This document shows positions 36,547 to 38,251 of a stretch of DNA of 64,000 nucleotides, one piece after another. The notes under the pieces were generated by a model. It ran no database searches and was not told where the DNA came from. It was given only the letters and a program-made list of their open reading frames with translations. Within the stretch, counting starts at the first letter, position 1; the number at the start of each line of letters is the position of its first letter. The DNA comes from Parvibaculum sp. GTDB taxonomy: Bacteria > Pseudomonadota > Alphaproteobacteria > Parvibaculales > Parvibaculaceae. The position numbers and the translations under genes are program-made. The stretch is taken from contig JAHBYL010000001.1 of the NCBI GenBank assembly GCA_019635955.1, forward strand, positions 62,001 through 126,000. The letters are read 5' to 3'.

Positions 36547-37302
36547 TCAGGCATAGGCCGAGATAATTCCCCAGAAATCTTCCGCCTTCAGGCTCGCACC
36601 ACCGACCAGAGCGCCGTTTACATTCGGCACGCTCATAAGTTCCGCTGCATTCGACGGTTTCACCGAGCCGCCATAGAGAATGCGCATCTTCGCGCCTTCC
36701 GCCCCGAAGCGCGCCTCGAGCGCCTTGCGGATGGCGGCATGGACCTTCGCCACATCGTCCGGCGTCGGCGTGCGGCCCGTGCCGATAGCCCAGACCGGCT
36801 CATAGGCGATGACGGTCGTCCTCGCCGTGGCGCCATCGGGCAGCGAGCCCTTGAGCTGACCGCGGATCACTTTCAGCGTCGCGCCGCTGTCGCGCTCCGC
36901 TTCGGTTTCACCGACGCAGACGATGGCCGTGAGCCCGGCGCGATGTGCGGCTTCCGCCTTGGCGCGGACCAGGGCATCGGTTTCACCGTGATCGGCCCGG
37001 CGCTCCGAATGGCCAACGATCACGAAAGCTGCGCCGGCGTCCTTCAGCATCTCGGCCGAGATATCGCCTGTATGCGCGCCGCTTTGCTTCGCATGGCAAT
37101 CCTGGCCGCCTATGGCGATCTTCGAGCCCTTTGCCGCTTCCTTCAGCGTCGCGACCAGCGTGGCGGGCGGACAGATCAGCACGTCGCAGGCGGGCTTCGT
37201 CTTGCCCGAGAGCTTCTTCGCCAGCGCCGTCACCTCCTTCTTCGAGGCTTTCGCTCCGTTCATCTTCCAGTTGCCGGCTACCAGTGCCTTCACGCGCGCC
37301 AT
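36547..37302 (-). CDS. tpiA: Triosephosphate isomerase
   Basis: Interconverts dihydroxyacetone phosphate and glyceraldehyde 3-phosphate. 251 residues: GNWKMNG with the catalytic Lys at the start, the His in VIVGHSERR, the catalytic Glu in [16 protein letters not shown] (flexible loop) and [13 protein letters not shown] for the phosphate. Full length. It is the first gene of the tpiA...secG-pyrG-kdsA stretch, transcribed away from the long region without intact genes that follows. Confidence 0.97.
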
Positions 37303-37459: not shown

Positions 37460-37488
37460 TTGGCAAGTAATGACCTCGCGTGTAGCTT
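37460..37488 (+). promoter_or_regulatory. Promoter candidate for the small RNA at 37495
   Basis: TTGGCA (37460-37465), exactly 17 bp, then TAGCTT (37483-37488). Transcription would begin near 37495, next to an ATG at 37496 that opens a 28-codon frame. The -35 box is close to consensus; the -10 box matches at TA...T only. Confidence 0.42.
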
Positions 37489-37494
37489 GCGCCC

Positions 37495-37643
37495 CATGAC
37501 AAACCGTCGATTCCACATGGCCGAAAAGGCCACCTTTTGGGGTTACTCGCCTTCGGGGCCGGGTCGCTTGCGCACGCGCTGAATTAGCCTGCAAAATCGA
37601 CGCTTTGAGAGCCCCATCCACCAGATCGGGGCTCTTGTGTTTT
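37495..37643 (+). ncRNA. Candidate structured small RNA with its own terminator
   Basis: An approximately 149-nt unit bounded by a promoter-like site and an intrinsic terminator. The 5' part 37501-37512 pairs with 37595-37606 (CGTCGATT with AATCGACG plus an AAA/TTT extension across one mismatch), enclosing 82 nt with an internal hairpin TGGCC-GAAAA-GGCCA (37518-37532). The same stretch has an open frame of 28 codons (37496-37582, starts MTNRRFHMAE), which would be leaderless, so a tiny peptide is an alternative. It shows none of the motifs I know for SRP RNA or tmRNA; 6S RNA cannot be excluded. Confidence 0.42.
37608..37643 (+). terminator. Terminator-like hairpin closing the small RNA
   Basis: AGAGCCCC (37608-37615) and GGGGCTCT (37628-37635) form a perfect 8-bp stem with a 12-nt loop, followed by TGTGTTTT. 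It starts 2 nt after the closing stem of the candidate small RNA. The strong stem in a region without an intact gene is the main reason to suspect a transcript here. Confidence 0.65.
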
Positions 37644-37909
37644 CAGAACTCCGGTCACCGAAACCAGTCGCGTACCGGAGTTTGCCCATGCCTCTTGAAT
37701 ACTTGAACCGCTTCGCCGGACCCACGCTGGAGATCCGCGCTCCGCCGCGCTGATCCGGCGTAAAGAACCGCTTTTCCAAAGGCAGACCCAGTGCCCCCGC
37801 GCAAATCGCACGGGAGCAAGCGATACAGTTTTGCCTGCCTTTCGAAACACGAATACTTGAAAACAACTACACCTTCTTTGCCCGCGCAGAGAGGGAACGG
37901 AGAAGAATT
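37644..37909. other. Gene-poor stretch with several perfect repeats
   Basis: No protein gene recognised. It holds AACTCCGG/CCGGAGTT (37647-37654 and 37675-37682), AAAGGCAG/CTGCCTTT (about 37779-37786 and 37836-37843), and an 11-bp direct repeat GAATACTTGAA (37697-37707 and 37851-37861). A 107-codon minus-strand frame crosses it, but its sequence resembles nothing I know. GGAG at 37899-37902 is a ribosome site for the broken gene that follows. Confidence 0.45.
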
Positions 37910-38251
37910 ATGCCTATCGTCTAAGTTCACCGGATCGTCCAGCATGGCCGCAGCGCCGGCACGGTTGCCGCGCTGGCCGCCTTCCTGGGCATCTCCTTCA
38001 GCTCCCACCCGCCGGACGACATTCTGGCGGCGCTCATCGTCATCCTGCCGTCCTTTCAGGTCGCCTTCTTCGCCCTGATCTTCGCGGTGGCATATGACGA
38101 GGCGCCACATCTGCTCGGCACGCGCTTCGCCTTCTCGCTCTGGGCGGCCGCGAGCTTCGTCGTGATGTGGGCTCTTGTCGAAGCGACGCAGGCCAGCATC
38201 CGGGTCTATGTCGAGTTCGGCCTGCCGCCCGTTTATGGCATGCAGGTCTGA
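37910..38251 (+). pseudogene. Small membrane protein gene interrupted at codon 5
   Basis: GGAG sits 7 bp before ATG 37910, the frame reads MPIV and then TAA (37922-37924), and the same frame continues open to TGA at 38249-38251. The continuation has strong GC third-position bias and encodes two hydrophobic segments (GTVAALAAFLGISF and ILAALIVILPSFQVAFFALIFAVA) and a third (FAFSLWAAASFVVMWALVEA), about 109 residues in all. No alternative ATG, GTG or TTG with a ribosome site lies early in the frame. Either a nonsense mutation killed a small membrane-protein gene or the base is a sequencing error. Function unknown. A 202-bp gap without genes follows before ppiD. Confidence 0.6.

Follow-up and report, generated by a model that had tools for sequence, protein, structure and literature searches.

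The window analyzed here, a 64 kb stretch of Parvibaculum DNA, carries at 37460-37643 an interval flanked on one side by tpiA (minus strand, 36547-37302) and on the other by a gene for a SurA_N-type foldase followed by trpE (plus strand, from 38454), names being assigned from translations. The parts of the leader and ORF3 in the window lie on the plus strand. A sequence-only reading had interpreted this interval as a compact transcription unit for a small regulatory RNA, without a known gene. The latter description is right for the interval itself; what follows it is ORF3 (37910..38251), which represents an undescribed gene family encoding a three-helix membrane protein of 113 residues in the window. 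The literature library searched contained no paper on a Parvibaculum leader peptide or sRNA, and comparison with Rfam yielded no covariance-model match on the plus strand, either at gathering thresholds or at E-values up to 10. Interrogation of 61 genomes with the DNA of the interval returned matches in the genome of origin (a bin of 201 contigs, approximately 87% complete) and in 21 other Parvibaculum genomes; one further match, of 37 bp in a sister genus, falls within a different coding sequence and probably arose by chance. The interval was aligned across 20 Parvibaculum loci. Records carrying the same unit derive from Parvibaculum or from bins of Parvibaculaceae/Rhodobiaceae. Most likely the stretch is a genetic switch restricted to Parvibaculum and its closest relatives, in which the progress of ribosomes on a tiny leader gene ahead of a transcription stop signal determines whether the membrane-protein gene behind is read; all evidence presented is comparative and draws on few independent lineages. 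Motif matches in Streptomyces and other actinobacteria, returned by a pattern scan, were taken as chance occurrences in G+C-rich genes. The size and layout of the unit also suggested 6S RNA, an identity we rejected: the 6S RNA of this genome resides on another contig, and the interval has no match to it.

The interval opens with the predicted promoter that the sequence-only reading had pointed out (37460..37488), comprising a -35 element TTGGCA, a spacer of 17 nt and a -10 element TAGCTT. Its position is conserved, and its sequence largely so, in the 20 homologues, 14 of which retain the form TTGGCA-17-TAGNNT. The exact arrangement TTGGCA-N17-TAGCTT occurs once in the 64 kb, with zero occurrences expected from shuffled sequences, and was missed by a strict promoter scan because it agrees with only eight of 12 consensus bases. 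Between the -10 element and the ATG of the first reading frame, L1, the gap is exactly 7 nt in 17/20 homologues, and an ATG likewise lies 7-9 nt past the -10 element in two other genera. Given the spacing found in these 17 loci, the RNA is expected to start at or next to the L1 ATG, probably within about one base of it.

L1 itself (37496..37582), the leaderless 28-codon frame that had been proposed to overlap the unit, encodes MTNRRFHMAEKATFWGYSPSGPGRLRTR followed by a stop codon and is open in 20/20 homologues. An open frame alone is not rare, a chance frame of such composition remaining open over 25 codons with a probability of 0.43, and the argument for L1 therefore rests on its fixed start and its C-terminal peptide. 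The latter conforms to P-[S/T]-G-P-[G/S]-R-x-R in all 20 loci, with R-x-R-stop in 18; the R codons and the x residues vary, and the four most distant loci show synonymous changes, with other Pro, Gly and Arg codons in the motif. In L018 and L019 one base is gone near the end of L1, and R-x-R-stop gives way to ...SRLRALK or SRLRVLK. The N-terminal half drifts with no coding constraint (pN 0.39 vs pS 0.34), and purifying selection on L1 is unsupported by pN/pS, pN not being below pS. Conservation of the frame and of its C-terminal peptide in every locus would suit a small functional protein provided with its own terminator and unrelated to the regulation of ORF3, but this explanation is very improbable in view of the drifting N-terminal half, with pN close to pS, and of the two other genera, in which the layout is kept though the leader peptides differ and have no conserved R-x-R end.

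In none of the 20 L1 sequences is there a run of codons for a single amino acid, which excludes an attenuator of the amino-acid-biosynthesis subtype and does not bear against drug- or stress-type attenuators. Trp in particular occurs at most once, and is absent from several homologues. A Trp leader, considered since the unit precedes ppiD-trpE, was rejected on this ground, as well as by the presence of a gene in between and by the other positions that the unit occupies in relatives.

Past the end of L1 lies an intrinsic terminator (37607..37643; stem GAGAGCCCC/GGGGCTCT, tail TTGTGTTTT), which had been recognized previously as AGAGCCCC..GGGGCTCT with a T-rich tail. Across the 20 sequences 95% of its cells are paired, and eight cells carry compensated changes, a value as high being attained in 0/500 shuffles. 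An intrinsic terminator separates leader ORF and gene in two other genera as well. The hairpin GGCC-GAAAA-GGCC within L1 (37519..37531) also bears out its earlier prediction: the stem is paired in 14/14 sequences with six compensated changes, a U-A/C-G exchange in six sequences, and the loop is not conserved. The proposed pairing of the two ends of the unit fared differently. This closing helix, CGTCGATT:AATCGACG, does occur in the fold of the window sequence (MFE -56 kcal/mol, z -2.3) but is kept as that helix in only three of the 20 homologues, all of them close sequences.

Further pairings point to an alternative structure that would prevent termination. The candidate 5' strand of an antiterminator, GGGGC at 37555..37559 (region 2), is complementary to GCCCC at 37611-37615 in the 5' arm of the terminator, at a spacing of 57-60 nt in all loci; within L1 it comprises the last base of a Ser codon, a Gly codon and the first base of a Pro codon. 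When the RNA was folded only as far as the terminator 5' arm and with no ribosome, GGGGC:GCCCC paired in most sequences. With a ribosome placed at the Tyr codon it paired in 20/20 folds, and with a ribosome placed at the stop codon the GCCCC arm was left free for the terminator. Inside this core, two helices, GUCG:CGAC (37563-37566 with 37598-37601) and UUGC:GCAA (37568-37571 with 37591-37594), have 96% and 86% of their cells paired, respectively. They covary slightly, with three compensated pairs, and are found in the RNAalifold consensus; sliding them by +2 or +3 columns gave similar covariation scores with far fewer pairs. (In alignment A3, L020 is off by one base in the inner helix.) The antiterminator blocks would also account for the conservation of GCCTGCAAAATCGAC, which follows the L1 stop. 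A competitor of the antiterminator, the 1:2 hairpin within L1 (ACUCGCC-UUCGG-GG-C-CGGGU; 37545..37564), has 90.7% of cells paired and, being almost invariant, has no covariation support. The core GGGGC:GCCCC is likewise invariant in Parvibaculum, hence without covariation in the genus, and the energy of the duplex between L1 and the terminator arm, compared with that of shuffled L1, was mostly not significant (p 0.02-0.62). In L061, from a second genus, GGGAC(U) stands opposite (A)GUCCC, a compensated change of the core seen by inspection in this one case. With a core that is invariant and a pairing energy that is mostly not significant, we regard the antiterminator within the L1 leader as a good candidate rather than as proven.

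The conserved organization extends beyond the terminator. A hairpin, AACTCCGGT/ACCGGAGTT (37647..37682), conceals the Shine-Dalgarno sequence GGAG of a second small ORF, L2 (37688..37753; MPLEYLNRFAGPTLEIRAPPR followed by a stop codon), in 19/20 homologues, three or four of the four GGAG bases being paired despite sequence change. L2 bears near its C-terminus a RAPP motif of arrest type; RAPP or RGPP is found near the L2 end in half of the homologues (10/20, as EIRAPP or EIRGPP), with weaker forms elsewhere and none in four. Each of the two has been proven to act as an arrest motif elsewhere, in other peptides (PMC12992588). What L2 shares with ApdA, ApdP and their relatives (PMC12992588) is an R-[AG]-P-P sequence close to the C-terminus and a location upstream of another gene; unlike ApdA and ApdP, L2 is only 21-36 residues long, has no evident export signal, and has a motif that is decayed in half of the homologues. 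In a sister genus (L060-L066) the second small ORF has a different conserved end, AIDVSVGS or AIHVSVGS, instead of EIRAPP. Because a hairpin hides the L2 Shine-Dalgarno sequence and L2 carries RAPP/RGPP, ORF3 is probably also controlled in a second, translational stage. The simple idea that a ribosome stalling on L2 would free the start of ORF3 was rejected, since folding gave it no support: such a ribosome brought no change in the predicted access to that start. A further hairpin, CCTTCTTTGC..GCAGAGAGGG, lies at 37880-37905 of the window, directly before the ORF3 Shine-Dalgarno sequence; most of the homologues located at the tpiA site seem to have it as well.

Proteins of the ORF3 family are 113-129 residues long, are modelled by AlphaFold2 as three long helices (mean pLDDT 85) and have intact representatives in 28 other genomes. 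Searches of Pfam, NCBIfam, PADLOC, PHROGs and PDB, by sequence and by fold, identified no relative of ORF3, and in the same libraries it resembled no resistance protein. The copy in the window is broken by TAA at codon 5 (37922-37924), a codon that reads CAA in the near-identical genome G002; the difference could reflect true polymorphism, decay of the gene or faulty assembly, the last of which could also underlie single losses, the genomes being largely bins. Among the 40 genomes from the family, ORF3 is present in 30, which represent three genera; it was found in none of 381 genomes of the class beyond those.

Wherever ORF3 occurs (30/30 genomes), a leaderless-type ORF and a terminator are located upstream of it. 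Four Parvibaculum genomes carry the module at other chromosomal sites, with trp genes not nearby. One genome (L022) cleanly lacks it in the space from tpiA to the foldase gene; in another (L017) a deletion between two copies of GCTTGCGC has shortened L1, and ORF3 has lost its middle, residues about 36-98, the damage mapping on the reverse strand to approximately 1443-1510 and 1890-2018 in the turned sequence. That leader and ORF3 are present, relocated, lost and damaged jointly is the strongest argument for regarding the leader as serving ORF3. In Parvibaculum MAG_BA296 (L020:980-1370), a guanidine-II riboswitch (38 bits) and an ORF for an SMR-type transporter immediately precede the relocated module.

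These observations alter the original small-RNA interpretation. As supposed, the interval does hold a transcription unit, which is conserved and unannotated and includes a leaderless small ORF and a terminator. Its interpretation chiefly as a stand-alone sRNA is not supported: the unit always stands before ORF3, moves and decays with it, and has conserved pairings of attenuator type. The self-contained promoter and terminator and the conserved internal hairpin would be compatible with a terminated transcript of approximately 148 nt, or a leader peptide, acting chiefly in trans with ORF3 as a secondary matter, for which the leaderless rnTrpL, known to act in trans (PMC7298713), offers a precedent. 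We nevertheless consider this unlikely, since the unit directly precedes ORF3 in all 30 genomes and is lost or damaged jointly with it, its conserved pairings are those of the terminator and of the L2 start region, and the leader outside the attenuator segments mostly diverges freely. By analogy with rnTrpL/peTrpL, the terminated RNA or peptide may have a trans role in addition.

From the comparison of these sequences, we consider it likely that 37460-37643 forms the 5' portion of an attenuator through which ribosomes control the transcription of ORF3. In such an attenuator, region 2 would have three possible fates: pairing with a CC stretch that lies upstream (1:2), pairing with the terminator 5' arm (2:3, the antiterminator) or occlusion by a ribosome. 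The terminator 5' arm would otherwise pair with its own 3' arm (3:4, the terminator). A ribosome reaching the conserved P-S-G-P-G-R-x-R-x-R-stop end of L1 would cover region 2, so that the terminator forms and an RNA of about 148 nt is released. Were the ribosome held or missing upstream, at about the Tyr codon or earlier, region 2 would be free, the antiterminator would form and RNA polymerase would read on into L2 and ORF3. The sign we favour is accordingly that full translation of L1 leads to termination and that ribosomes held or missing early lead to read-through; the response may instead have the opposite sign. Points that speak against the attenuator are the invariant antiterminator core, a pN of L1 not below its pS, the absence of a codon run for one amino acid, the unchanged predicted access to the ORF3 start with a ribosome stalled on L2, and the nonsense codon in the ORF3 copy of the window.

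The end of L1 invites comparison with leaders that sense macrolide-type drugs, in which the ribosome would stall at R-x-R and ORF3 would be a resistance or ribosome-stress protein. The yxjB (tlrB) leader of Bacillus subtilis encodes a peptide with an R-x-R-stop end (RYR), followed by an intrinsic terminator and a hairpin that hides a Shine-Dalgarno sequence (PMC6851288), an order reproduced here, and R-x-R-stop persists in 18/20 loci while its R codons and x residues vary. The tlrB leader is, however, not described as leaderless, and its hidden Shine-Dalgarno sequence is that of the resistance gene, whereas here it is that of L2 and the regulated ORF3 is a membrane protein without known relatives. 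That the present leader senses drugs in this manner is quite unlikely: judging from fold geometry, a ribosome stalled at R-x-R would occupy region 2 and favour termination, the conserved R-x-R end is missing in the other two genera, and ORF3 has no recognizable relative among resistance proteins.

The attenuator that we propose for ORF3 shares with the trpLE(G) attenuator (rnTrpL/peTrpL) an alphaproteobacterial leaderless leader ORF followed by an attenuator terminator; in Sinorhizobium meliloti the rnTrpL transcript starts at the ATG and the terminator comes after it (PMC7298713). It differs in that L1 has no Trp run, the gene downstream is ORF3 instead of trpE(G), and two extra layers, the hairpin hiding a Shine-Dalgarno sequence and L2, are interposed. 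In Escherichia coli, the toiL uORF of topAI-yjhQ reads translation stress through RNA structure (PMC12121999); it works via Rho and the hiding of a Shine-Dalgarno sequence, without an intrinsic terminator in the leader, which sets it apart from L1.

A more far-reaching and distinctly tentative reading is that the whole constitutes a two-stage leader not described before, in which attenuation through a leaderless peptide is combined with a RAPP-type uORF behind a Shine-Dalgarno-hiding hairpin that gates translation of a lineage-specific membrane protein; such a leader would serve Parvibaculaceae, and them alone, as a sensor of translation or membrane stress. The leader-ORF3 system is small and readily testable with reporters in a harmless, cultivable bacterium. 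An attenuator of this kind, conserved, unannotated and based on a leaderless leader peptide, would extend a group in which few are known, and would be linked to an orphan family of membrane proteins. It also points to two uORFs in tandem whose peptide motifs differ, one of these motifs corresponding to a ribosome arrest motif that is already proven.
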